Below, one piece after another: positions 43,535 to 59,530 of a DNA stretch of 64,000 nt. Position 1 is the stretch's first letter. Each line of letters starts with the position of its first letter. The notes beneath the pieces are model-generated. The model ran no database searches, had not been told where the DNA came from, and worked only from the letters and a program-made list of their open reading frames with translations. Position numbers and translations under genes: made by a program. This DNA is from Methanomicrobium mobile BP. GTDB taxonomy: Archaea > Halobacteriota > Methanomicrobia > Methanomicrobiales > Methanomicrobiaceae. The stretch covers positions 1 through 64,000 of the forward strand of contig NZ_JOMF01000006.1 of NCBI RefSeq assembly GCF_000711215.1. Reading direction: 5' to 3'.

Positions 43535-45070
43535 ATGGTAAATTTACTGATAAATTGTTTCGATGAAACGGTTCGAAAGAATGCAGATAAGACTGCAATA
43601 ATAGATGGTAATGAAAAGGTTACTTTTACAAAGCTGCAAGAGATCAGCTTGAAATTAAGCATCATTATCAATTCAAAGATGCAAAATGAGGTCAAACAAC
43701 CTATTGCCGTATATACAAAAAAATCAATTGCAAATGTAGCTTCAGATATAGGAATACTATATTCCGGAAATGCATTCTTAAATCTTGATGTAAAATCACC
43801 AGCGAATCGAATAAGTGCAATTCTTTCGGCAATTAAACCGGGATTAATTATAGCAACAAAGGAATCTGCCAAAAATCTGGAATCGATTTATCCAATATGT
43901 AACATTCTTATCTATGATGACATTGAATTCAGTGCAGTAAATATAGATCAAACTCTTAAGCATCACCAATTATCAAGAATAATTGATGCTGATCCGATGT
44001 GCATTATTACAACTTCAGGATCTACAGGTACTCCTAAAGGAGTAGTGTTGAATCACAGAAGTTTCATGGACTTTACAAAATGGGCACATGACGCAGGATT
44101 AATCCATGATACTGATATAATTGGAAATCTGTCCCCGATTGTATTTGATCTATATTGCTCCGATCTCTGTATGATGATGAGATATGGAACAAGCATTGTC
44201 TTACTTTCGGAGAAACATGCCGCATTTCCGACATATTTGTTGGAGACGATACGTGATAACAGAGTAAGTTACATTTTTTGGGTTCCGACCATAATGGTAA
44301 ATATCGCAAATATGAGCTTGTTGGACAAAATTTCGTTACCTGATTTGAAGACAATATGGTTTTCGGGAGAAGTTTTCCCCACAAAACAGTATAATGTTTG
44401 GAAAAAACATCTGCCGCAGGCAAAGTTCGTTAATTTGTACGGACCGGTAGAGGCAACGGTTGATGTAACTTATTACGTTGTCGAGAAAGAAATCGCGGAT
44501 GAAGATCCAATACCTATAGGGTATGCCTGTGAGAACACTGATGTATTCCTGTTATCTGAGGAAAATACCGCTTGCAAAACGGGTGAAGAAGGAGAGATTT
44601 GTATCCGGGGAACATCGCTTGCCATGGGCTATTACAACGATCCGGAGAAGACGGCCAAAGTATTTGTGCAAAATCCGTTAAATAAGCAATATCCAGAGAT
44701 AATCTATAAAACCGGAGATATAGGGGTAATTAACGAAGCAGGAGAGATGATCTTTAGGGGTCGTAAAGACACACTTATAAAGCATGCGGGTTACAGAATC
44801 GAACTTGGTGAGATAGAACATACAATCATAAACAAATTGAAGCTGATCGAAAACGGTTGCATTGTGTATAATTCGGTAGCAAAGGAAATAGTACTGTATT
44901 ATGAAACAATGTCAAATATTACTCCGCAAGATATTCGCGTAAGACTAAGCAACGAACTTCCACAGTATATGATCCCATCAAAGTACATTAAGTTAAATGC
45001 AATGCCGCGCAATACTAATGGAAAGATAGATCGATTGTATCTTAAAGAATTGTGCTTACACGGAGAATAA
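43535..45070 (+). CDS. Amino-acid adenylation enzyme, DltA/NRPS A-domain type
   Basis: 511 aa stand-alone adenylation domain. Core motifs in order: A3 ITTSGSTGTPKGVVLNH (about residue 153), A4 FDLYCSD, A5 VNLYGPVEATVDVTYY (about 304), A7 IYKTGDIGV, A8 GRKDTLIKHAGYRIELGEIE and A10 NTNGKIDR with the catalytic Lys. It activates a carboxylic acid, probably an amino acid, as the AMP ester and loads it onto the carrier protein encoded 1 bp downstream. The arrangement is like DltA-DltC of Gram-positive bacteria. The substrate cannot be read safely from sequence alone. AT-rich codon use, like the rest of the locus. Confidence 0.9.
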   Translation: MVNLLINCFDETVRKNADKTAIIDGNEKVTFTKLQEISLKLSIIINSKMQNEVKQPIAVYTKKSIANVASDIGILYSGNAFLNLDVKSPANRISAILSAIKPGLIIATKESAKNLESIYPICNILIYDDIEFSAVNIDQTLKHHQLSRIIDADPMCIITTSGSTGTPKGVVLNHRSFMDFTKWAHDAGLIHDTDIIGNLSPIVFDLYCSDLCMMMRYGTSIVLLSEKHAAFPTYLLETIRDNRVSYIFWVPTIMVNIANMSLLDKISLPDLKTIWFSGEVFPTKQYNVWKKHLPQAKFVNLYGPVEATVDVTYYVVEKEIADEDPIPIGYACENTDVFLLSEENTACKTGEEGEICIRGTSLAMGYYNDPEKTAKVFVQNPLNKQYPEIIYKTGDIGVINEAGEMIFRGRKDTLIKHAGYRIELGEIEHTIINKLKLIENGCIVYNSVAKEIVLYYETMSNITPQDIRVRLSNELPQYMIPSKYIKLNAMPRNTNGKIDRLYLKELCLHGE

Positions 45071-45071
45071 T

Positions 45072-45296
45072 ATGGAGAAAATCTTAGAAATATTAAAAAC
45101 ATTGCACCCCGAATATGATTACGAAAAAAGTACAAATTATCTGGATGATGGGTTATTGGATTCGTTTGACATCATTGCTTTGGTGACCGAATTGGAAGAT
45201 AATTTTAACATTGACATTGATCCAATTGAAATAATTCCGAATAACTTTGAGTCAATGAATAAAATAAAGAGTTTTGTGGAGAATAAGCAGCACTGA
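45072..45296 (+). CDS. Acyl/aminoacyl carrier protein (DltC-like)
   Basis: 74 aa acidic four-helix protein. The phosphopantetheine site is DDGLLDSFDIIAL, with attachment Ser31. Length and the helix 2 start FDIIALVTELEDNFNIDIDP match D-alanyl carrier proteins. It starts one base after the adenylation gene stop. It needs a 4'-phosphopantetheinyl transferase, which is not in the window and is uncommon in archaea. The loaded group is probably passed to a sugar or glycan by the GNAT-like protein that follows. Confidence 0.9.
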   Translation: MEKILEILKTLHPEYDYEKSTNYLDDGLLDSFDIIALVTELEDNFNIDIDPIEIIPNNFESMNKIKSFVENKQH

Positions 45297-45556
45297 GAAT
45301 CAAGTATTATACATTTCCCAATTGAAATACATATGTATGATAGGGATCAGAATAGTATATCGGATAAAAATATTATTATTGAACATCCCTAATATCATAA
45401 TAGCGTAAACGTAGTTGAAATTATGATGACCCTCTTTAGTAGAATGGCATATAATATGTATGTACTGGGGTTACATATGTATAAAACATGCTGTTGCTTA
45501 TTGAATCGGAAAAATATGTCTGATTGAATCGCTATATATTTGTTTTTACTGATATT

Positions 45557-46687
45557 ATGAATATTATAACAATATATAAACAGGATTTGTCATCTGAATT
45601 GGAGAATAAGATTGCTTCTTTTCTATCTGAATATTTCCATTCTGAAATAAATGAAATATGGAAGTTAAGATTCAATCTAATCTGGCATTCTAATCCATAT
45701 CTTACAGATGATGTCCCAGCAGGCTGGATCCTAAAAAACGATGACGATGAAATATGTGGATTTCTGGGTAACGTCCCTGTAGAATTCCAATATGAAAATA
45801 TTGTTTTAAATGCATCCGGAGCAGATTCGTTGTATGTATCCAAAAAATATGCAGGTATTGAGGGTGCACGATTGTGCATATCATTCATAAAACAAAAAAC
45901 TGACATCCTCATTGATAGCACTCCCAATGAGACTGCGGAAAAGATATTTGAGAAACTAAAATTTAACAAAATTCGTGTTGAGTACATTACAAGTTATATC
46001 ATTGTTATAGCCCCATTTTCATTATTAAAGTATCTATATAATAAGTATCATTCGAACAATGTCCATGAATCAAATCTGTTTCATTCAAAAAAATTAAAAT
46101 ACTTTGAAAATAATGGGCAACCGGTCTCTCAAAGTAGGTTTGATATACAAAATTTAGACTTTTTCACAAGTCATGGATACAGCTTGAAACGTATCTCGTC
46201 AGTTTCCGAATTCATGAACTGTATTAATAGTCACACCGTTGACAAACGTATATTATTATCCCGAAAAATTGAATCATTAAACTGGATTTTATTTTCACAA
46301 GAAGTTCAAAGCTTGTTGCACAGGTCTGTAATTTCGATATGGGATCAGGCAGAGAATTATATCGGGTATTGTGTATTCGACATTAAAGAAGAGAGTCGTT
46401 CTCAAAGATATCTGTTGGTGAGACAAATTGATTTGATAGTCTCTGATGTAAATATACTAAAAGCCCTAAAGAAATATTTAAAAGTTGTAGCTAAACGAAA
46501 CGGTTGTTTCATGATACAAATCAGATTAATAATGCCTGATGTAAATTTGGATCTTATGCTTCGAAAAGTTATTCGTCTGAAAAAAGAAGGCAAAAATAAT
46601 TATCTTGTAAAACTGCCAAATGACAGAGATTTCTCGCTTGATGAATTTTATGCCTCTGCATTGGATCCAGATCTCGGATTTGTATAA
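45557..46687 (+). CDS. GNAT-fold acyltransferase, probable partner of the carrier protein
   Basis: 376 aa. The N-terminal half has GNAT-like features (IWKLRFNLIWHSNPYLTDD, DEICGFLGNVPVEF, LYVSKKYAGIEGARLCISF). The C-terminal half (RKIESLNWILFSQEVQSLLH, YIGYCVFDIKEESRSQRYLL) looks like a second, related domain, so it may be a double-GNAT protein. Substrate is not readable. The ATG at 45557 is chosen over an upstream TTG. A 260-bp AT-rich gap follows the carrier gene, but order and strand suggest a link. An aminoacyl transfer to a sugar amine is the working idea; O-acyl transfer is the alternative. Confidence 0.62.
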   Translation: MNIITIYKQDLSSELENKIASFLSEYFHSEINEIWKLRFNLIWHSNPYLTDDVPAGWILKNDDDEICGFLGNVPVEFQYENIVLNASGADSLYVSKKYAGIEGARLCISFIKQKTDILIDSTPNETAEKIFEKLKFNKIRVEYITSYIIVIAPFSLLKYLYNKYHSNNVHESNLFHSKKLKYFENNGQPVSQSRFDIQNLDFFTSHGYSLKRISSVSEFMNCINSHTVDKRILLSRKIESLNWILFSQEVQSLLHRSVISIWDQAENYIGYCVFDIKEESRSQRYLLVRQIDLIVSDVNILKALKKYLKVVAKRNGCFMIQIRLIMPDVNLDLMLRKVIRLKKEGKNNYLVKLPNDRDFSLDEFYASALDPDLGFV

Positions 46688-47235: not shown

Positions 47236-48147
47236 ATGAACAAATGTCCGTTAGTTAGTGTAGTAATTCCTGTATATAACGGAAGTAACTACGTCAGAGA
47301 GGCTATTGACAGTGCTCTTGCGCAGACATACAAAAATATTGAAATATTAGTGATAGATGATGGATCCACGGATAATACATGGGATATCCTTCAGTCTTAC
47401 GGAGATAAAATTAGAAAATACCATAAACAAAACGGCGGGGTATCTACCGCACTGAATATGGGAATAAAAAATATGCGAGGTGAATGGTTTGCATGGCTCA
47501 GTCATGATGATCTGTGGCTTCCGGAAAACATCGAAAAAAAGATCGAATTTCTCAACGCGCACCCCAATTATAGGATGTGCTATGGCGAAATAGATCATAT
47601 TAACTCAGAACATAAAATTTTGAAGATATACAATACCACAGGTAGATGGTATCCAAAAGGAAAAATGCTACGACAAATGCTCAGAAGTGGATATATTGTA
47701 GATGGGTTAACCACAATAATCAACAAAGAATGTTTTGAGAAAATAGGAGTCTTTAACGAGAATCTGAGGTACTGTCAAGATTATGAATTTTGGTATAGAC
47801 TTGCACAAGTATATGATCTGGGCTTTTGCAAAGGTAAATACTCACAATCAAGAGTCCATCCAGAGCAAACAGGATATATACATAACATATCATGCCATGA
47901 TGAATTTAGAAAAACCAGACTTTATTTATACAGGAAAACCAGAACAGAAGAGTTTTATCCCGAATTATTAAATCCAAATATGTCTAAAATTAAGCTAATT
48001 GTTTTACAATTTTCATCAGGGATCTATTTGAAATACCTAAAACTTTGTATACAACACAATATTCCAGAATTAAGTGAAATGCCTAAAGAAATAGCCAGAG
48101 CAATTCTCCCAAAAAAAATAAAAGCATATATCCGTAATAATTGGTAA
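47236..48147 (+). CDS. GT2-family glycosyltransferase
   Basis: 303 aa GT-A fold enzyme. The N-terminal nucleotide-sugar site is SVVIPVYNGSNYVREAIDSA with EILVIDDGSTDNTW. The DxD-like metal motif is WLSHDDLWLPEN, and the acceptor-side FNENLRYCQDYEFWYRLAQV includes the ED-type base. No transmembrane helix is evident. Donor unknown; possibly one of the HexNAc-type sugars made in the next genes. The gene is isolated by long AT-rich gaps on its left side. Confidence 0.9.
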   Translation: MNKCPLVSVVIPVYNGSNYVREAIDSALAQTYKNIEILVIDDGSTDNTWDILQSYGDKIRKYHKQNGGVSTALNMGIKNMRGEWFAWLSHDDLWLPENIEKKIEFLNAHPNYRMCYGEIDHINSEHKILKIYNTTGRWYPKGKMLRQMLRSGYIVDGLTTIINKECFEKIGVFNENLRYCQDYEFWYRLAQVYDLGFCKGKYSQSRVHPEQTGYIHNISCHDEFRKTRLYLYRKTRTEEFYPELLNPNMSKIKLIVLQFSSGIYLKYLKLCIQHNIPELSEMPKEIARAILPKKIKAYIRNNW

Positions 48148-48285
48148 TGACAACAGATCTATGTGATATGTAGCTATAAAGCAAACCTAATCATATGATG
48201 AAAATGTATAATAGGAATATATACTTACGAAAAATATCGATGAAGATATTATAACTTAAAATTCAATATTATAATGGGAGCCTGT

Positions 48286-49341
48286 ATGAGCAATAATAAC
48301 GGAAACAGAAGTTACAAAGAAGCACTTGCAAATAAAACAATACTTGTAACCGGAGGAACGGGTTCTTTTGGTCATAATGTCGTTGAAAAGATACTGCAAA
48401 CCGCAAATCCAAAAGAAATAATCATATTCAGTCGGGATGAAAAAAAGCAATTTGATATGAGGAATGAGTTTCAAAACGATAAACTCACTTTCCTCATAGG
48501 TGATGTCCGTGACAAAGACTCGGTTTCAAAAGTCATGAGACGTGACATTGATTACGTATTTCATGCGGCGGCACTTAAACAGGTCCCTTCATGTGAATTT
48601 TTCCCACTTGAAGCGGCAAAAACAAATATCATCGGATCGTCCAACGTGCTTGATGCGGCAGAAGAAGCAAACGTTGAAAAGATGGTTATTCTAAGTACCG
48701 ACAAAGCGGTATATCCCATAAATGCAATGGGAATTTCCAAAGCAATGATGGAAAAACTCATGCTAGCCAAAGCAAGATCTCACACATCAGACACAATATT
48801 CTGCGGAGTCCGTTACGGCAATGTCATGTATTCCCGCGGATCTGTTTTCCCGCTCTTTCTGGAACAGATGCAAAGAGGCTTGCCGATTACCGTTACCGAA
48901 CCCAATATGACGCGTTTCCTGCTCCCTCTTCCGGTTGCAATAGACCTGGTCCTTTTTGCCATGGCTAACGGTGAAAACGGAGATATTCACGTAAGAAAAT
49001 CACCCGCAGCAACCGTTCAGCATATGGCTGAAGCAATGCGTGACTTATTTAAGCCGAATGCCGAGATTAAATCAATCGGTATTCGTGAGGGGGAGAAGAT
49101 GCATGAGACACTAGTCACCCGTGAAGAACTGATGAAAGCTGTTGAATACGATGATTATTTTAGGATCAGAAGTTTAGAGAGAATCGATTATGACAAATAT
49201 TTCTCTGCAGGTCAGGCCGTTCCAGTGCCTAAAGAAGATTACAATTCATTCAACACTCGCAGATTAAGCTTAGATGAGACTAAAGAACTCCTGTTATCAC
49301 TTCGTGAAATAAAGGAAGCACTTAAACATCCAATTGTATGA
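48286..49341 (+). CDS. capE: UDP-GlcNAc 4,6-dehydratase/5-epimerase, first UDP-FucNAc enzyme
   Basis: 351 aa SDR. NAD site KTILVTGGTGSFGHNVVEKI; DYVFHAAALKQVPSCEFFPL; active-site stretch VILSTDKAVYPINAMGISKA; VRYGNVMYSRGSVFPLF. It converts UDP-GlcNAc by dehydration and 5-epimerisation toward UDP-L-FucNAc (CapE/FnlA/WbjB). The ATG at 48286 follows GGGAG; an ATG four codons upstream is possible. It overlaps the CapF gene by four bases and is followed by the CapG-like epimerase, so the pathway is complete in gene order E-F-G. Confidence 0.92.
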   Translation: MSNNNGNRSYKEALANKTILVTGGTGSFGHNVVEKILQTANPKEIIIFSRDEKKQFDMRNEFQNDKLTFLIGDVRDKDSVSKVMRRDIDYVFHAAALKQVPSCEFFPLEAAKTNIIGSSNVLDAAEEANVEKMVILSTDKAVYPINAMGISKAMMEKLMLAKARSHTSDTIFCGVRYGNVMYSRGSVFPLFLEQMQRGLPITVTEPNMTRFLLPLPVAIDLVLFAMANGENGDIHVRKSPAATVQHMAEAMRDLFKPNAEIKSIGIREGEKMHETLVTREELMKAVEYDDYFRIRSLERIDYDKYFSAGQAVPVPKEDYNSFNTRRLSLDETKELLLSLREIKEALKHPIV

Positions 49342-50447
49342 AACTGCGCATAGGTATCACGGGACAGAACGGATTCATAGGATATCATGTTCTTCAACAT
49401 TTGAGGCTTCAACCGGAGTTATACGAGATTATTCCTTTTGAAAAGGAATTTTTCAACACACCTCAAAAACTTACAGACTTTGTAAGTAAATGTGATGTAA
49501 TTATCCATCTGGCTGCAATGAATAGAGGGGATGAACAAGAGATCTATGATACAAATATCTCGCTGGTCAAAAAACTGATTTCCGCAATGGATGATGCGGG
49601 TGTAACTCCGCACATCTTATTTTCTTCATCTACTCAAGAAAATAAAGGCAACCCATACGGAAACTCCAAAAAAATAGGTGCTGAACTGTTTTCACAATGG
49701 TCGCAAAGCAATAATTCCGTATTTACTCACTACGTAATTCCCAATGTATTCGGTCCGTTCAGCAGACCATATTACAATACAGTTGTTGCAACATTCTGTT
49801 ATCAGTTAACGCATGGTGAAAAACCCGTTATTATAACAAATACTGAAATGAATCTCATATATGTCGGAGATTTAGTCAGTGATTTTTTTGCACACATTAA
49901 CGATACAAAATCATCGGTTGTTTCACCAAAACCGGTTACATCAATTAATGTCAGTGGTCTTCTGTATAAATTAGAACTATTCAAAGAATGGTATTTTGAC
50001 AAAGGCATGATTCCTAATCTTCAGAATTCTTTTGAGGTTAATCTCTTTAACACATTCAGATCTTTTGCAAATGATATTATGCCCATTTATCCCGATCTTC
50101 ATTCAGACCCAAGAGGAACATTTGTCGAGGTCATAAAAGAGAGGACCGGTGGTCAGACTTCATTTTCAACAACGTTACCGTCAATAACCCGCGGAAATCA
50201 CTTTCACATGCGCAAAATAGAAAGGTTTTGCGTTGTTAAAGGAAAAGCACTTATTCAAACACGAAAAATTGGAACAGATCATGTTAATGAATACATGGTA
50301 AGTGGCAATAAACCGGCGTTTATTGACATGCCAATTTTTTATGCGCATAACATTAAAAATATTGGAGAAGAAGAACTGCTTACAATATTTTGGACTAATG
50401 AAATATTTGACCCCAATGATCCGGACACATTTTATGAGGAAGTGTAA
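49338..50447 (+). CDS. capF: CapF-like bifunctional 3-epimerase/4-reductase
   Basis: 369 aa, the length of known CapF/FnlB. The N-terminal SDR has RIGITGQNGFIGYHVLQHL, FSSSTQENKGNPYGNSKK (YxxxK) and YVIPNVFGPF. The C-terminal cupin (about residues 245-369) has DPRGTFVEVIKERTGGQTSF and the His metal site GNHFHMRKIERFCVVKG. The cupin epimerises C3 and the SDR reduces the 4-keto group with NADPH. Start and stop overlap the neighbours (ATGA and TAATG), so the trio is tightly coupled. Confidence 0.93.
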   Translation: MKLRIGITGQNGFIGYHVLQHLRLQPELYEIIPFEKEFFNTPQKLTDFVSKCDVIIHLAAMNRGDEQEIYDTNISLVKKLISAMDDAGVTPHILFSSSTQENKGNPYGNSKKIGAELFSQWSQSNNSVFTHYVIPNVFGPFSRPYYNTVVATFCYQLTHGEKPVIITNTEMNLIYVGDLVSDFFAHINDTKSSVVSPKPVTSINVSGLLYKLELFKEWYFDKGMIPNLQNSFEVNLFNTFRSFANDIMPIYPDLHSDPRGTFVEVIKERTGGQTSFSTTLPSITRGNHFHMRKIERFCVVKGKALIQTRKIGTDHVNEYMVSGNKPAFIDMPIFYAHNIKNIGEEELLTIFWTNEIFDPNDPDTFYEEV

Positions 50448-51574
50448 TGACTGAACTGAAAGTAATGACAATTGTGGGCACCCGTCCTGAGATTATACGC
50501 CTTGCATGTGTAATGCAGGAATTAGACAAATACGTAACTCAAGTCATTGTTCACACGGGTCAGAACTATGATTATGAACTGAATGAAATATTCTTTAAGG
50601 AACTTGGACTTCGAAAGCCGGATTATTTTATGAATGTGGACACTTCAAGTCTTGGAAATGTCCTAGGCGGTGTTCTCATCAAAGCTGAGGAGATCATTCG
50701 TGCCGAGTGTCCGGATGCGGTATTAATTCTTGGTGATACCAACAGCAGCATAGCCGGAATTATTGCAAAACGGCTGAAAGTACCAATCTTCCATATGGAA
50801 GCAGGAAACAGATGCTTTGATCTGAATGTTCCCGAAGAAATCAACCGCAGAATAATAGACCATATTGCCGATTTCAATCTGGTATACACGGAACATGCAC
50901 GAAGACATCTTTTGTCTGAAGGACTGCCTCACAGAAGAATATACCTTACAGGTTCTCCTATGTACGAGGTTCTGCACAAATATGAAGATAAAATTACATC
51001 TTCCAAAATCTTAAAAGAATTGCACCTTAAAGATCGGGAATATTTTGTTGTAAGTGCACATCGCGAAGAAAATGTAGATAATCCGGAACATTTGAAAAGT
51101 ATTTTGAGTGTTCTTAACGAACTTGCCGAAAAGTATGATGCGCCCGTTATTGTATCCACACACCCCAGAACACGCAAACGTCTGGAGTCTGCTTCAGATA
51201 TTACAATAGATTCGCGGGTCAAATTCCTTAAACCCTTCGGATTCTTTGATTATGTACACCTTGAGATGCATGCGCTTTGTACCCTTTCAGATTCAGGAAC
51301 CATATCCGAAGAATCAGCCATAATGAAATTCCCGGCAGTTACAATAAGAGAAGCTATTGAAAGACCGGAAGCTCTTGATGCGGGATCTATAATCATGACA
51401 GGACTTGACAAGGATGTCATTATGGCGGCGGTTGCCTTGGCTATAGATAAACGTTCTGAAGACGTTAGCAGGGCTGTTCCGGATGAGTATGCGGTAGCCA
51501 ATGTTTCGGAGAGAGTTGTTAAATTGATTCTGGGTACAAGTAAATTGAGCAATAAGTGGTGGGGGATAGAGTAA
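50447..51574 (+). CDS. capG: CapG/WecB-like UDP-N-acetyl sugar 2-epimerase
   Basis: 375 aa GT-B-like epimerase. Motifs: MTIVGTRPEIIRLACVMQEL, VIVHTGQNYDYELN, ILGDTNSSIAGIIAKRL, HMEAGNRCFDLNVPEEINRR, SAHREENVDNPEHL and DSGTISEESAIMKFP. In this context it makes UDP-L-FucNAc by 2-epimerisation of UDP-N-acetyl-pneumosamine. Other WecB-like uses, such as making UDP-ManNAc, cannot be excluded and could also serve the uronate pathway downstream. Confidence 0.92.
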   Translation: MTELKVMTIVGTRPEIIRLACVMQELDKYVTQVIVHTGQNYDYELNEIFFKELGLRKPDYFMNVDTSSLGNVLGGVLIKAEEIIRAECPDAVLILGDTNSSIAGIIAKRLKVPIFHMEAGNRCFDLNVPEEINRRIIDHIADFNLVYTEHARRHLLSEGLPHRRIYLTGSPMYEVLHKYEDKITSSKILKELHLKDREYFVVSAHREENVDNPEHLKSILSVLNELAEKYDAPVIVSTHPRTRKRLESASDITIDSRVKFLKPFGFFDYVHLEMHALCTLSDSGTISEESAIMKFPAVTIREAIERPEALDAGSIIMTGLDKDVIMAAVALAIDKRSEDVSRAVPDEYAVANVSERVVKLILGTSKLSNKWWGIE

Positions 51575-53096: not shown

Positions 53097-54182
53097 ATGA
53101 TACCTATAGCAAAACCTTATGCATCAGAAGAGGAAGCAACACATGTACGTGAAGTTATTCTTTCAGGAATGATGGCAGCAGGAGATATCGTTCACGAGTT
53201 TGAGCAAAAATTTGTGGATTTTTGTGGCGCTAAATACGGAGTGGCAACAACCAACGGAACTTCAGCTTTACATGCGGCGGTTCTTGCTTCCGGAATATCG
53301 AAGGGCGATGAAGTAATCGTTCCCGCATTCACATTTTATGCATCCGCCAGTTGTGTTTCAATGTGTGGCGCAACACCCGTCTTTGCAGATATTTTACCAG
53401 ATACATACAATCTAGATCCTAAATCGGTTGAAAATAAAATAACAGATAAAACTAAAGCAATTATTGGAGTGCACTTATTTGGACAATGTTGCAACGTTAC
53501 AGAACTCTCGCGTATTGCCAAAAATAACGACATAACATTTATAGAAGACGCGGCACAGGCTCACGGTGCCGAATGGAAAGGTGTACGTTCCGGGTGCCTC
53601 GGTGACATGGCAACATTCTCTTTTTACCCCACTAAAAACATGACAACAGGTGAGGGAGGGATGATTGTGACAAATGATTATAGCAAATCAGAACTTGCGC
53701 GTGTAATATGTAACCACGGTCAAACAGAAAAATATCGTCATACTATGCTTGGCTACAATTATCGCATGACAAATATCAATGCTGCAATCGGTCTGGAACA
53801 GTTAAAACGTATTGAAAAATTTACGGAAATGCGCATTAGGAACGCAAAGATTCTTTCGGAAACAATACAGACCAAAGGCATTACAGTCCCTTTTGTTTCA
53901 CCCAAGGCAAAACATGTGTATCACCAATATGTCATTCGTGTTGAAGATGACTTTCCTATGACACGTGATGAACTCATGTCCTATTTAGCATCAAAGGGTA
54001 TTGGTTCAGCAGTTCATTACCCAATACCACTTCACAAACAGCCATACTTTGCTGAGAATAATGCTAACACACAATTACCGGTATCCGAAGACTGCGCAAA
54101 ACGCGTACTCAGCATACCCGTACATCCGGCAGTTACAGAAGATGAATGTTTATACATAGCTGATACATTAAACAGTATTTGA
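53097..54182 (+). CDS. UDP-3-oxo-GlcNAcA aminotransferase (WlbE/WbpE type)
   Basis: 361 aa PLP-dependent DegT/DnrJ/EryC1 enzyme. GVATTNGTSALHAAVLASGI, IEDAAQAHGAEWKG (PLP Asp) and FYPTKNMTTGEGGMIV with the Schiff-base Lys (around residue 183). The C-terminal part has YHQYVIRVEDDFPMTRDELM and GSAVHYPIPLHKQPYF. It transfers an amino group from glutamate to C3 of the UDP-3-oxo-uronic sugar. The role is set by three neighbours: Gfo/Idh oxidase, UDP-sugar 6-dehydrogenase and hexapeptide acetyltransferase. Confidence 0.88.
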   Translation: MIPIAKPYASEEEATHVREVILSGMMAAGDIVHEFEQKFVDFCGAKYGVATTNGTSALHAAVLASGISKGDEVIVPAFTFYASASCVSMCGATPVFADILPDTYNLDPKSVENKITDKTKAIIGVHLFGQCCNVTELSRIAKNNDITFIEDAAQAHGAEWKGVRSGCLGDMATFSFYPTKNMTTGEGGMIVTNDYSKSELARVICNHGQTEKYRHTMLGYNYRMTNINAAIGLEQLKRIEKFTEMRIRNAKILSETIQTKGITVPFVSPKAKHVYHQYVIRVEDDFPMTRDELMSYLASKGIGSAVHYPIPLHKQPYFAENNANTQLPVSEDCAKRVLSIPVHPAVTEDECLYIADTLNSI

Positions 54183-54367
54183 TTTGGTGAAAAAATGACA
54201 CATCATTTTCAAAAATGCTGCATGTTATAATATTTATTTTTATGCTCGATAAGGTCTGTGCAATTTAGGATATCTCCCCATACTGAATAAAAAACACTCA
54301 CACAAAACATATTATAAATTACTGCTAAAAATTATCAGTAAATAGAGAGTTAAGGCAGTATTTTAAA

Positions 54368-55279
54368 ATGAATATTGGTGTAATAGGTACCGGAGTTATG
54401 GGACAAAACCATGCCCGTAACTACGCAGATATGAAAGGCATAGACGAGATTTATCTTTTTGACGTTTTTACCGAAACTGCCCAAAAAACAGCCGAACGTT
54501 TGAATGCGAAAACTGTACCATCAGTAGATAAACTGCTTGACAAAGTTGATGCCGTAAGCATATGTGTACCAACACAGTTTCACAAAGACACGGCATTTCA
54601 AGTATTGAATACAGGTGTAGCGGCACTCATTGAAAAACCAATATGTTCTACAGTTTCCGATGCAGAATACTTAATTGAGAATATTCCGAAAGGCATCATT
54701 ACAGGTGTTGGACATATTGAGAGATTCAACCCAATTATCAATGAGATTTCACGAATTGCCGAAAAACCACATTATGTAGCGATACATCGACATAATCCTG
54801 TTTCGGCAAGAATTACAGGAACACCTGTTGTCGAAGATCTCATGATTCATGACATCGATATTGTTCTCAACAAGTTTATCAAAGGAGATTATTCTCTAAG
54901 CGCATGCGGAACAGATGATGTAATGGGAGTTCTGATAAACAATAACAATACTCCTATTTATCTCTCTGCAAGCCGAAAAGCATCCAAAAAAATTCGATCA
55001 ATATCTGTCGAAACAGAAAATTTTACTATTGAAGGAGATTTCATGACTCAGGAAGTATACATTTATCGCAAAGCAGGAGTATACCATGCTGAGAACATGC
55101 GCTATGTGCAAGAAAATGTTGTAGAAAAAGTAATGGTTACTAAAGTAGAGCCACTCAAACTTGAACTGCAAACATTTCTGGACTGCGTCAAAAACAAGAT
55201 CCAATTCCCGATCACACTTGAACAGGCAACAGAAAACCTCAAGCTATGCGAAAAGATCCACAAAGCAGCAGGGGCATAA
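54368..55279 (+). CDS. UDP-GlcNAcA 3-dehydrogenase, Gfo/Idh/MocA (WlbA type)
   Basis: 303 aa. Rossmann site MNIGVIGTGVMGQNHARNYA; AVSICVPTQFHKDTAFQVL; EKPICSTVSDAEYL; the catalytic region GHIERFNPIINEIS; RHNPVSARITGTPVVEDLMI followed by HDIDIVL. It oxidises C3 of UDP-N-acetyl-glucosaminuronate, feeding the aminotransferase. Short for the family but complete. It ends three bases before the next start. Confidence 0.88.
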   Translation: MNIGVIGTGVMGQNHARNYADMKGIDEIYLFDVFTETAQKTAERLNAKTVPSVDKLLDKVDAVSICVPTQFHKDTAFQVLNTGVAALIEKPICSTVSDAEYLIENIPKGIITGVGHIERFNPIINEISRIAEKPHYVAIHRHNPVSARITGTPVVEDLMIHDIDIVLNKFIKGDYSLSACGTDDVMGVLINNNNTPIYLSASRKASKKIRSISVETENFTIEGDFMTQEVYIYRKAGVYHAENMRYVQENVVEKVMVTKVEPLKLELQTFLDCVKNKIQFPITLEQATENLKLCEKIHKAAGA

Positions 55280-55281
55280 AC

Positions 55282-56706
55282 ATGAATAAACTGGAAGATA
55301 TCATAAAAGCACGTGGACCGATAAACAAAGTAGGGGTTATTGGAATGGGATATGTAGGGATACCTGCCGCAATGCTTCAGGCAGATGTACCCAACCGCAA
55401 AGTCTACGGATTCCAACGAGAATCAAAAACGTCGGGTTACAAGATTGATATGCTAAATAATGGGGAGTGTCCATTAAAAGGTATAGAGCCCGGTCTTGAA
55501 GAACTTGTAAAGAAAGTTGTCAACGAAGGAAAATTCACATGCACTTCAGATTTTTCAAAAATTTCCGAACTGGATGCGGTTACACTCTCCATTCAAACGC
55601 CATTTAAAGATCCCAAGGATTTAATACCTAATTTTGATGCTTTAATCGAAGGCCTAAAAAATGTTGGAAAATATCTTGTTCCGGGAACATTAGTAGTTTT
55701 AGAATCGACAATCACACCCGGAACTACCACGATTCTGGCCAAAGATATTCTTGAAAAAGAATCGGACCTTAAAGCAGGAGTGGATTTTGCTCTTGCCCAC
55801 GCGCCGGAACGTGTTATGGTCGGACGACTTTTACAAAATATACGTGAATATGATCGTTGCGTAGGCGGAATAGACGATGTCAGTACAGCACGTGCCATAG
55901 AACTATATGCCCCGATTCTCACAAAAGGAAAGGTAATACCAATGAGTGCAACAGAGGCTGAAGTAACCAAGACAACCGAAAATACTCTCCGAGATCTTCA
56001 GATTGCCGCTGCAAACCAACTTGCTCTTTATTGTGAAGCTATGGGAATCAATTTTTATAACGTAAAAGCAGGAATTGACTCTCTGAAAGGTGAAGGTCTG
56101 ACACGTGCACTGCTATTGCCGGGTGCCGGTGTCGGAGGACACTGCCTTACAAAGGATACATATCATCTTGAGCGCGGAATGCACACACTTTCGGGTGAGA
56201 AATATGACTATCCCAAAGGTGAAGAGTCAATATATGTTCTGGCACGTCACATTAATGATTTCATGCCGAAGCACATGATAAATCTGACAAAAAATGCTCT
56301 GCGCTGTGATTCATTAAGAAACAAGAAAATTGCTTTGCTTGGTTGGGCGTTCCTGGCAAACACAGACGATGCAAGAAACACACCATCCGAAACATACCGT
56401 TCACTGGCACAAGCGGAAGGAGCATGTATAAAAATACATGATGTTTGGGTGAAATCAGATCAGGAAAAACCCGATCTTGTGATAGACAAGGACATTTCCG
56501 AAACGGTCAAAGGTGCCGACGCGGTTATACTCCTTACTGCCCACAATGAATACAAAGAGCTGGACCCCAAATTGCTTAAAAAAATGACAGCTAACGAGCA
56601 TCCCGCAGTAATAGACGGAAGAAACATATTTGATCCGGATTCATTCATCAATAACGGTTGGATTTACCGTGGAATAGGTCGCGGAGACAAAAACAATCTG
56701 AGTTAA
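55282..56706 (+). CDS. UDP-N-acetylhexosamine 6-dehydrogenase (WbpA/WecC type)
   Basis: 474 aa. NAD site VGVIGMGYVGIPAAMLQ, substrate parts ESTITPGTTTILAKD, APERVMVGRLLQNI, the catalytic Cys in GAGVGGHCLTKDTYHL (about residue 290), and the C-terminal lobe IALLGWAFLANTDDARNTPS. It oxidises C6 of UDP-GlcNAc (or UDP-ManNAc) to the uronate with two NAD+. With its three neighbours UDP-GlcNAc is the probable substrate. The start is at MNKLEDIIKARGP, with GCAGGGGC before it. Confidence 0.92.
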   Translation: MNKLEDIIKARGPINKVGVIGMGYVGIPAAMLQADVPNRKVYGFQRESKTSGYKIDMLNNGECPLKGIEPGLEELVKKVVNEGKFTCTSDFSKISELDAVTLSIQTPFKDPKDLIPNFDALIEGLKNVGKYLVPGTLVVLESTITPGTTTILAKDILEKESDLKAGVDFALAHAPERVMVGRLLQNIREYDRCVGGIDDVSTARAIELYAPILTKGKVIPMSATEAEVTKTTENTLRDLQIAAANQLALYCEAMGINFYNVKAGIDSLKGEGLTRALLLPGAGVGGHCLTKDTYHLERGMHTLSGEKYDYPKGEESIYVLARHINDFMPKHMINLTKNALRCDSLRNKKIALLGWAFLANTDDARNTPSETYRSLAQAEGACIKIHDVWVKSDQEKPDLVIDKDISETVKGADAVILLTAHNEYKELDPKLLKKMTANEHPAVIDGRNIFDPDSFINNGWIYRGIGRGDKNNLS

Positions 56707-56711
56707 TAACT

Positions 56712-57320
56712 ATGTCAGCAAAAAATGCAATTGGTAAAAATGTCACAATATTTGAGCCTGTTCAATTGGGATTTCCTTCAAGAGAGCATATTGGAAAGAA
56801 TGAATGGAACGGTGTCGTCATCGGTGATGGTTGTATTATACGTTCGGGATCTATAATATATTCCGACGTAATTATGGGTAAAGGATGCCAAACAGGGCAT
56901 AACGTATTGATACGTGAAAAAACAGTTATCGGTGATTACACTGCAGTCGGCACAGCAACTGTGATAGACGGTAACGTTACAATCGGCACAAATGTAAGCA
57001 TTCAAAGTCAGGCATACATACCTCCGGGAACAAAAATTGGGAACAATGTTTTTATAGGCCCTAATGTTGTCATAACAAATGATATGTACCCTCCGACAGG
57101 TATCGGAGGTCTCCAGGGTGCGACAATTGAAAATTTTGCAGCAATCGGTGCAAATGCAACTCTAATTCCTGGAGTGGTTATAGGCAGAGGTTCTTTTGTT
57201 GCGGCAGGATCTGTAGTGACAAAAGATGTGCCTCAAGACATGATGGCAATAGGTAATCCGGCAAAGATCAAAGATCTACCAAAAGCAATGAGAAAAAATG
57301 ACGACAATAACGTAGTATAA
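56712..57320 (+). CDS. Hexapeptide-repeat N-acetyltransferase (WlbB/WbpD type)
   Basis: 202 aa trimeric left-handed beta-helix enzyme. Repeats run through GVVIGDGCIIRSGSIIYSDV, NVLIREKTVIGDYTAVGTAT and IGTNVSIQSQAYIPPGTKIG, with an external loop VVITNDMYPPTGIGG and a terminal AAGSVVTKDVPQDMMAIGNP. It acetylates the C3 amine with acetyl-CoA to give UDP-GlcNAc(3NAc)A, completing a four-gene set. The ATG at 56712 is 5 bp after the dehydrogenase stop. Confidence 0.88.
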   Translation: MSAKNAIGKNVTIFEPVQLGFPSREHIGKNEWNGVVIGDGCIIRSGSIIYSDVIMGKGCQTGHNVLIREKTVIGDYTAVGTATVIDGNVTIGTNVSIQSQAYIPPGTKIGNNVFIGPNVVITNDMYPPTGIGGLQGATIENFAAIGANATLIPGVVIGRGSFVAAGSVVTKDVPQDMMAIGNPAKIKDLPKAMRKNDDNNVV

Positions 57321-58492: not shown

Positions 58493-59530
58493 ATGTCTAC
58501 TGTCACTATTAAAATATTGAACGAAAATGAGAAAGAACGATGGGATGACATTGTCAAACGCTCCCCACATTCAACACCTGTCCACCTATATGACTGGCTA
58601 AAAATAATTGAAACATATACGAATACTAAATTATATCTGTTTGTGGGCTACATCGGTGACGAGATTGTTGCGGCAATACCATTGTTTTATTCAAAGAAGC
58701 ACTTTTTTAAAATTTTATCATCACCCCCGGCAAATGTTGTCATTCAGAATTTAGGACTGATTATCCCGGAATATAATTCATTAAAGCAAGACAAAAGAGA
58801 GTATTACTTTCGTGAATTCATGACAGAGTTTAACAAATATCTCGCTAAAACAATCAAACCTGATGTCGTGAGTATTGTTACTCCACCGGGATTGGTAGAT
58901 GCACGTCCATACAACTGGAACAATTACATTGTTACCCCGAAATATAACTACGTCTGTGATATATCGGACCTTGAAATAGTCTGGAAAAACTTCAAAAAGA
59001 CATTGCGTAAGAATATTGAAAAAGCATCAAAACTGAAATTTTCAATTGAAGAAGGGGATATCTATGAATATATCAAAATATATGAGTTTGTTGTAAAAAG
59101 GCTAAGTGATCAGGGGCGTGATGCTACGACACCTTGTGAATATTTCAGATCATTATACCAAACAATCTCCAAAGACACCTTAAAAAATTTTGTCGCAAAA
59201 TTAGACGGAGAGGTTGTCACAGGGATAATTGTCTTTGGGTATCATGAGAAAATTTCAATATGGGTAGGTGCAACACAAGTAAATATGCCTGGCTTATACC
59301 CTGTTGATTTATTGCAATGGGAAATCATAAAATGGGCATCTGATCATGGATACAAATATTGTGAGATTCTTGGAGCAAACACGCAATCAATAAGTTATTT
59401 TAAGTCACGATATAATTTTGATCTCGAAATATATTACAGTGCTGAATATTATGGATTGAAAGCATATCCAATATATGCTCTGAGGAAATATTTCAATCGC
59501 CTGGTAAATTACAGGAAAAAATCTGATTAA
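58493..59530 (+). CDS. FemAB-like GNAT transferase
   Basis: 345 aa with two GNAT-like halves of the FemAB/BioF2 type. HSTPVHLYDWLKIIETY at the start, KNFKKTLRKNIEKASKL in the middle (basic, as in acyl-tRNA-binding forms), and VAKLDGEVVTGIIVFGYHEK, then GLYPVDLLQWEIIKWASDHG at the end. Bacterial FemAB adds amino acids from tRNA to murein; archaea of this type have no murein, so it more likely adds an aminoacyl or acyl group to a sugar, or is related to PEP-CTERM/XrtA FemAB-like proteins. Function inferred only. Confidence 0.75.
   Translation: MSTVTIKILNENEKERWDDIVKRSPHSTPVHLYDWLKIIETYTNTKLYLFVGYIGDEIVAAIPLFYSKKHFFKILSSPPANVVIQNLGLIIPEYNSLKQDKREYYFREFMTEFNKYLAKTIKPDVVSIVTPPGLVDARPYNWNNYIVTPKYNYVCDISDLEIVWKNFKKTLRKNIEKASKLKFSIEEGDIYEYIKIYEFVVKRLSDQGRDATTPCEYFRSLYQTISKDTLKNFVAKLDGEVVTGIIVFGYHEKISIWVGATQVNMPGLYPVDLLQWEIIKWASDHGYKYCEILGANTQSISYFKSRYNFDLEIYYSAEYYGLKAYPIYALRKYFNRLVNYRKKSD

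Follow-up and report, generated by a model that had tools for sequence, protein, structure and literature searches.

The DNA analysed here, called the window, is the 64,000-nucleotide stretch at positions 1 to 64,000 of contig NZ_JOMF01000006.1 (C6) of Methanomicrobium mobile BP, whose genome of 1.71 Mb is assembled in 12 contigs and 91% complete. The host order is Methanomicrobiales, in which relatives include Methanocorpusculum, Methanofollis, Methanoregula and Methanomicrobiaceae records. A glycan locus starts at about 27.7 kb and runs beyond 64 kb on C6. Within this locus we found intact genes for a GINT1_N beta-propeller protein, a stand-alone amino-acid adenylation domain (A-domain), a small carrier protein and a tandem-GNAT transferase (Table 1). 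The carrier gene starts one base past the A-domain stop, and the GNAT gene starts 260 bp beyond the carrier stop. We consider it reasonably probable that the last three genes work together as a module for glycan aminoacylation that depends on a carrier protein.

Table 1. Genes of the trio and its surroundings in the glycan locus (positions in the window).
Feature	Position	Strand	Basis
GINT1_N beta-propeller protein, 316 aa	42483..43433	+	PF24793 E 9e-43
Stand-alone amino-acid adenylation domain, 511 aa	43535..45070	+	PF00501, alignments, core motifs
Carrier protein, 74 aa, Ser31	45072..45296	+	DltC/ACP models, solved carriers, genome scan
Tandem-GNAT transferase, 376 aa (extendable to TTG 45524)	45557..46687	+	Structure model, Foldseek, family alignments
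Glycosyltransferase family 2 (context)	47236..48147	+	PF00535 E 9e-35
FnlA/FnlB/FnlC-like genes, UDP-L-FucNAc-type pathway (context)	48274..51574	+	NCBIfam: FnlA, UDPAcbARedWbcJ, WecB
Aminotransferase, UDP-GlcNAc 3-dehydrogenase-like, nucleotide-sugar 6-dehydrogenase-like, hexapeptide acetyltransferase	53097..57320	+	NCBIfam; 6-dehydrogenase read from sequence
Second, different GNAT (Acetyltransf_6)	58493..59530	+	PF13480 E 2e-12

A preliminary description of this DNA had reported an A-domain with all core motifs preceded by a beta-propeller gene of glycan loci, and both statements held. The A-domain matches PF00501 (E 1e-57) and reaches 303.5 bits with TIGR01733, slightly under the cut-off of 317.4. 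The motifs A3 (TSGSTGTPKG at 160), A4 (FD at 204-205), A5 (NLYGPVEAT at 300), A7 (YKTGD at 391), A8 (HAGYRIELGEIE at 417) and A10 (NTNGKIDR at 493) were all located, and alignment to the DltA residues showed that Asp205, which binds the alpha-amine, and the catalytic Lys497 are retained. With the core motifs A3 to A10, the amino-group Asp and the catalytic Lys, the protein belongs to the adenylation domains of the nonribosomal peptide synthetase (NRPS) type. Its best sequence matches in the PDB are linear gramicidin synthase, other NRPS adenylation domains and DltA. The pocket signature reads D-L-S-T-W-S-L-V-D-K, and its ending S-L-V-D-K presumably resembles serine-type codes, which we use as a lead only. 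The genome holds two A-domains at the E 1e-40 level. At the position of DltA Cys269 the window A-domain carries Ser277, and the cysteine is kept in the second A-domain. In DltA, whose pocket residues have been described, Cys269 selects D-alanine (PMC4176424).

The carrier had been described as a 74-residue protein, one base past the A-domain, with Ser31 in a DxxDS motif. Length, serine and spacing were borne out, and the motif had to be corrected, as the phosphopantetheine site sits in DDGLLDS (DxxxDS/GLLDS). Taken alone the protein stays under the Pfam threshold; it matches PRK05087 with E 5e-9, resembles solved carrier proteins and matches PF00550 in the genome scan with E 0.005, under the cut-off. 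A serine in a DS motif, the length of a carrier and a phosphopantetheinyl transferase (PPTase) encoded in the genome place it among the carrier proteins. This PPTase, for which the preliminary description had suggested looking elsewhere in the genome, is a single AcpS-type enzyme at C5:236244-236513. Two PF00550 carriers were detected in the whole genome, that of the window and that of a second cassette described below, and both lie in A-domain/carrier/GNAT cassettes on one contig, C6. One activator, two carriers and two A-domains form a closed set in this 91%-complete genome. PPTases were found in 30 of 150 genomes of Methanomicrobiales, and, with the weak GNAT match of genome G055 not counted as a GNAT, they were present in 9 of the 11 genomes with a convincing GNAT versus 21 of the 139 others (Fisher p 7e-6, a value that ignores kinship). 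Most archaea lack acyl carrier proteins (ACPs), and transfer from bacteria accounts for their scattered presence in the others (PMC3533463). If our reading is true, it gives the carrier machinery of a methanogen a concrete job, with two carriers and one activator that appear dedicated to glycan cassettes.

The third open reading frame, extendable to TTG 45524, does hold the GNAT gene, but its start is likely ATG 45557 because homologues begin at that position. The window protein gave no sequence match in Pfam, NCBIfam or the PDB, and a profile search of the PDB returned chance matches only. Its family is unnamed in NCBIfam, and some members score weakly against ordinary GNAT models in Pfam. 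An AlphaFold2 model built from a 15-sequence alignment had a mean pLDDT of 79.8 and a pTM of 0.78. In Foldseek searches this model matched N-myristoyltransferase (NMT) best (E 3e-12, TM about 0.55), together with the Eis-type double GNATs 3n7z, 2i00 and Eis2 (E about 1e-11 to 1e-12). The predicted structure is that of a tandem GNAT with two GNAT domains per chain, an assignment at the level of the fold only and in agreement with the double-GNAT-like protein of the preliminary description. Plasmid and viral sequence searches with the window GNAT gave no relatives. We found no description of this family in the open-access literature, which is weak evidence of absence as subscription papers lay outside the search. 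If the reading is true, an unnamed GNAT family common to archaea and bacteria would obtain a function.

Among 15 members of the GNAT family, no Pfam match was found to NMT or to FemABX/MprF, and none to NodA (PF02474) at E 0.5. Sequence-family identity with NodA, FemAB or NMT was rejected on these grounds. FemAB and MprF are GNAT-fold enzymes that transfer aminoacyl groups (PMC2922099); their donor is aminoacyl-tRNA, whereas the donor predicted here is a carrier protein. The aminoacyl group might go to a protein or lipid and not to a sugar, as with NMT or MprF-type GNATs, and the best structural match is indeed a protein acyltransferase. However, that match is remote (TM about 0.55), the genes lie in a sugar-biosynthesis context and the deacetylase linkage described below points to an amino sugar, so we regard a protein or lipid acceptor as very unlikely.

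We compared 42 GNAT loci from Methanomicrobiales, Methanococcoides and kin, Desulfocapsa, Elusimicrobia and Gammaproteobacteria, of which 20 come from the phylum of one gammaproteobacterium. A carrier hidden Markov model gave 24 matches over these loci; 23 lie within 3.5 kb of the GNAT gene, and the one remaining match lies 6.3 kb away in the same gene cluster. As the near region makes up 42% of the searched bases, the binomial p is 4e-8 for the 42 loci and 9e-6 for 25 less-redundant loci. The linkage of GNAT and carrier recurs in Methanomicrobiales, one Desulfocapsa genome and Gammaproteobacteria.

The loading enzymes in these loci differ. An A-domain and a carrier adjoin the GNAT in the window and in the proteobacterial locus L114, whose A-domain passes TIGR01733 with 362 bits. 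By similarity, seven proteobacterial loci (L109, L111, L113, L116, L117, L119 and L126) hold a SerRS-like amino acid--[ACP] ligase with a carrier; in the three ligases scanned, NF005479 was the best match (E 7e-47 to 9e-45), under its cut-off. An AMP-ligase with a carrier was found in L026, L030-L034, L037, L038 and L051 (Methanomicrobiaceae, Methanofollis, Methanocorpusculum and L051), a ketosynthase with a carrier in L047 and L121, and FkbH with a carrier in L049. In a tree of 41 GNAT sequences the two A-domain cases were forced apart, the amino-acid ligase label needed three changes, and linkage to amino-acid loaders falls on separate, well-supported branches. Because the partners differ and the branches separate, carrier linkage is a lasting property of the GNAT family in which the loader is exchanged. 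The conserved unit is GNAT, carrier and some loader, and the loader is swappable. The preliminary description had named the lack of a PPTase together with a lack of conserved linkage in relatives as refuting its reading, and neither was borne out: a PPTase is present and GNAT and carrier are repeatedly linked, with amino-acid loaders on several branches. The exact three-gene set is rare.

In addition, a polysaccharide deacetylase lies within 4 kb of the GNAT in 15 of the 42 loci, and in L053 deacetylase and GNAT are joined in one open reading frame. A GINT1_N propeller near the GNAT, instead of the polysaccharide deacetylase, was also seen in L026, L027 and L121. In L121 (L121:11378-13483) the propeller is fused to a glycosyltransferase-28 domain, and on the Sphingomonas plasmid NZ_CP032828.1 the matching propeller gene is annotated as a formyl transferase, suggesting another fusion.

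The second cassette lies outside the window on the minus strand (C6:111434-116182; L024:7434-12182) and consists of genes for a polysaccharide deacetylase, a second transferase (GNAT2), an A-domain, a formyltransferase and a carrier. Compared to the window, its A-domain is 40% and its carrier 36% identical. The formyltransferase suggests an N-formylated aminoacyl group. GNAT2 alone showed no similarity to the first GNAT family in a single-sequence comparison, but with three homologues it was recognised as a remote relative (hhalign E 2e-5, probability 79%); this figure leaves out one sequence that had been found by the first family's own search, and the four-sequence version was set aside. Plasmid-borne bacterial homologues of GNAT2 lie beside FkbH and a carrier (Subdoligranulum) or beside a deacetylase (Sinorhizobium). 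A 261-nt sequence flanks the cassette in three direct copies (C6:110565-110817, 110984-111244 and 116211-116446), which are its only occurrences genome-wide and may mark insertion or exchange of the cassette. In the genus Methanocorpusculum, an A-domain/formyltransferase/carrier operon without GNAT lies amid housekeeping genes (L028:8807-11448, L029:8132-11165 and L039:31-1733), with an AcpS-type transferase immediately upstream where visible.

We propose the following mechanism for the window genes. Ser31 of the carrier would receive phosphopantetheine from the single AcpS-type transferase, and the A-domain, to judge from its intact motifs, would adenylate an alpha-amino acid whose side chain is small or polar, and would then thioesterify it to the carrier. 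Linkage, fold and neighbours suggest that the tandem GNAT takes the aminoacyl-S-phosphopantetheinyl carrier as donor in place of acyl-CoA, and that the acceptor nucleophile is most likely an amine on a sugar of the glycan locus, either nucleotide-activated or lipid-linked. In many relatives the deacetylase beside the GNAT would first expose the sugar amine, as NodB does for NodA, a linkage that suggests a scheme in which acetyl is removed and acyl added. The swappable loading enzyme would fix which acyl group is added, with GNAT and carrier as the recurring core. Context gives good support to the idea of a glycan-locus GNAT supplied with aminoacyl groups by a carrier, because a PPTase is present, the linkage recurs and amino-acid loaders fall on separate branches. 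Aminoacylated surface sugars are predicted if this holds and could be traced by mass spectrometry.

Several observations weigh against this reading. In 18 of the 42 loci, among them all five from Methanococcoides and kin (L043 and L072-L075), the searched stretch yielded no carrier, and the exact A-domain/carrier/GNAT trio occurs in two cases only, this genome and L114, a gammaproteobacterium. The GNAT-bearing genomes G098 and G109 are without a detected PPTase, although G109 does have a carrier. Owing to the 260-bp gap between carrier and GNAT, co-transcription is not assured and the GNAT may be transcribed on its own. Moreover, the loci with an AMP-ligase point to acyl groups other than amino acids in part of the family, so that the "amino" part depends on the type of loader.

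The same gap would fit an ordinary sugar acetyltransferase using acetyl- or acyl-CoA, with A-domain and carrier serving a separate step and the genes adjacent through shuffling of glycan loci. Such an enzyme would also account for the family members without a nearby carrier and for the weak similarity to ordinary GNAT models, and the glycan loci are mosaic, with 30-42% G+C against 53% in the topoisomerase VI (TopoVI) genes. On the other hand, 23 of 42 loci, from unrelated phyla and with different loaders, have their carrier close to the GNAT, and two remotely related GNAT groups of one genome both lie beside an A-domain and a carrier. We therefore consider the CoA-dependent enzyme unlikely.

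A stand-alone A-domain with a carrier is also the classic loading unit of NRPSs, and the trio could be a mini-NRPS whose product is a small, soluble metabolite of amide or peptide-like nature instead of a modified surface glycan. In lincosamide synthetase, the stand-alone A-domain LmbC and the separate carrier LmbN-CP supply the amino acid that ends up amide-linked to an amino sugar (PMC4351081), so that a carrier-bound amino acid is coupled to an amino sugar in an antibiotic. Unlike in the window, the condensing components there are others (LmbD, LmbE, LmbF and LmbV), described without relatives or with other relatives, and the product is an antibiotic and not a surface glycan. The window trio lies within a long glycan locus whose genes include those for nucleotide sugars and glycosyltransferases, neither a condensation nor a thioesterase gene was seen in the vicinity, and relatives recur in sugar loci (FnlABC-like genes adjoin the GNAT of L051, and L121 has the propeller-glycosyltransferase fusion). 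A mini-NRPS thus appears quite improbable.

The aminoacylation module shares with the Dlt system a stand-alone A-domain and a carrier of about 75-80 aa, and differs in having a GNAT transferase where Dlt has an MBOAT. The proteins missed the cut-offs of the DltA models (TIGR01734, 285 bits vs 559.85; PRK04813, 302 vs 476) and of the DltC models (PRK05087, 36.1 vs 68; TIGR01688, 23.2 vs 52.35), and neither a DltB MBOAT nor DltD was recognised among the genes neighbouring the window trio. Together with the replacement of Cys269 by Ser277, this led us to reject a Dlt system. The earlier proposal that a GNAT takes the place of a DltB-type transferase in aminoacylating a surface sugar finds support in independent context, but the comparison with Dlt failed on every component tested.

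A true Dlt-like system, in which the aminoacyl-carrier would serve a membrane O-acyltransferase for the extracellular esterification of a surface polymer, would be in keeping with the profile relationship of A-domain and carrier to DltA and DltC. Furthermore, the carrier of the second cassette has an MBOAT gene (C6:107720-109174) at a distance of about 2.3 kb. The DltB score of this MBOAT, 171.8 bits, is far under the cut-off of 375, though, no DltD match was found, and the MBOAT has no counterpart in the tested Methanocorpusculum genomes that hold the related A-domain/carrier operon. As the window trio has no MBOAT, misses the DltA and DltC cut-offs and carries Ser at the Cys269 position, we regard this possibility as highly improbable. 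The MBOAT gene overlaps that of a 360-aa protein that matches neither Pfam nor NCBIfam (L024:3720-6237), and the two could be an O-acyltransferase pair.

In function, the closest parallels to the aminoacylation module are lincosamide synthetase and Nod factor synthesis. In the latter, the deacetylase NodB frees a sugar amine, and the acyltransferase NodA re-acylates it from the dedicated acyl carrier NodF. Like NodB, NodA and NodF, a deacetylase adjoins GNAT and carrier in many relatives of the window GNAT. Unlike in the Nod system, the predicted donor is an amino acid, the transferase is a tandem GNAT of about 375 aa without PF02474 and the host is an archaeon; in addition, the window has the GINT1_N propeller at the position of the relatives' deacetylase.

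SerRS-like ligases load stand-alone carriers with an amino acid, as stated where PMC9437257 cites Mocibob 2010. Liposaccharide genes and a conserved uncharacterised protein have already been noted near such ligases (PMC2922099). Seven relatives of the window GNAT adjoin a ligase of this kind and a carrier, whereas the window uses an A-domain. If our reading is true, the GNAT becomes a proposed enzyme for the step after the SerRS-like amino acid:carrier-protein ligases that occur near liposaccharide genes. More tentatively, and with rather limited confidence, we propose that this cross-domain tandem-GNAT family could supply the transfer reaction that is missing for stand-alone carriers of aminoacyl and acyl groups, including those charged by SerRS-like ligases. 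In archaea and bacteria it would then act as a plug-in module that replaces acetyl on surface-glycan amino sugars with amino acids or with different acyl groups, the choice being set by an interchangeable loader.

Enterobacterial flagellin glycosylation islands hold an ACP, LuxE, LuxC, an acyl ligase and FabG (PMC4875605). The same kinds of genes sit with the GNAT in the archaeal locus L026, although the island loader is of the acyl and not the amino-acid type, and the passages on these islands do not name this GNAT. In L026 (L026:2324-11327, Methanocorpusculum) we observed AcpS, carrier, AMP-ligase, LuxE, LuxC, SDR, two transketolase halves, GNAT and GINT1_N. In the Methanococcus glycan ManNAcA6Thr, threonine sits on C6 of a uronic acid, placed there by an enzyme then unknown (PMC2952790). 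We set this glycan aside as a precedent, since the activated carboxyl would there be that of the sugar, whereas the A-domain activates the carboxyl of the amino acid.

The other genes of the glycan locus offer candidate acceptors. The genes at 53097-57320 would, as we infer from their sequences, form a pathway of the 2,3-diamino-uronic acid type with a free 3-amine intermediate, and this 3-amino intermediate is one candidate. The 4-amino sugars of a legionaminic-type pathway at C6 65-73 kb are another. There (L022:1418-8994), LegB, LegC, NeuB and NeuC were found, with LegB and LegC above the cut-off, accompanied by a PIG-L deacetylase and a formyltransferase. For the FnlABC-like genes, WecB alone of the three best NCBIfam matches clears its cut-off. 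The G+C content of the glycan locus, mostly 30-42% against 53% in the adjoining TopoVI genes, suggests that the region was acquired and is mosaic. The TopoVI genes inside the window and mtr genes farther along C6 mark the host as an archaeal methanogen. Among the GNAT loci, L030, L031, L035 and L037 repeatedly have NAD-synthase-like and WbpG-like (Asn_synthase/PP-loop) proteins near GNAT and carrier. Finally, L032:5318-7032 contains overlapping open reading frames with the repeated peptides SSPRVWGT, FIPTRVGNT and VHPHACGEH, suggestive of a CRISPR-type repeat array in translation.

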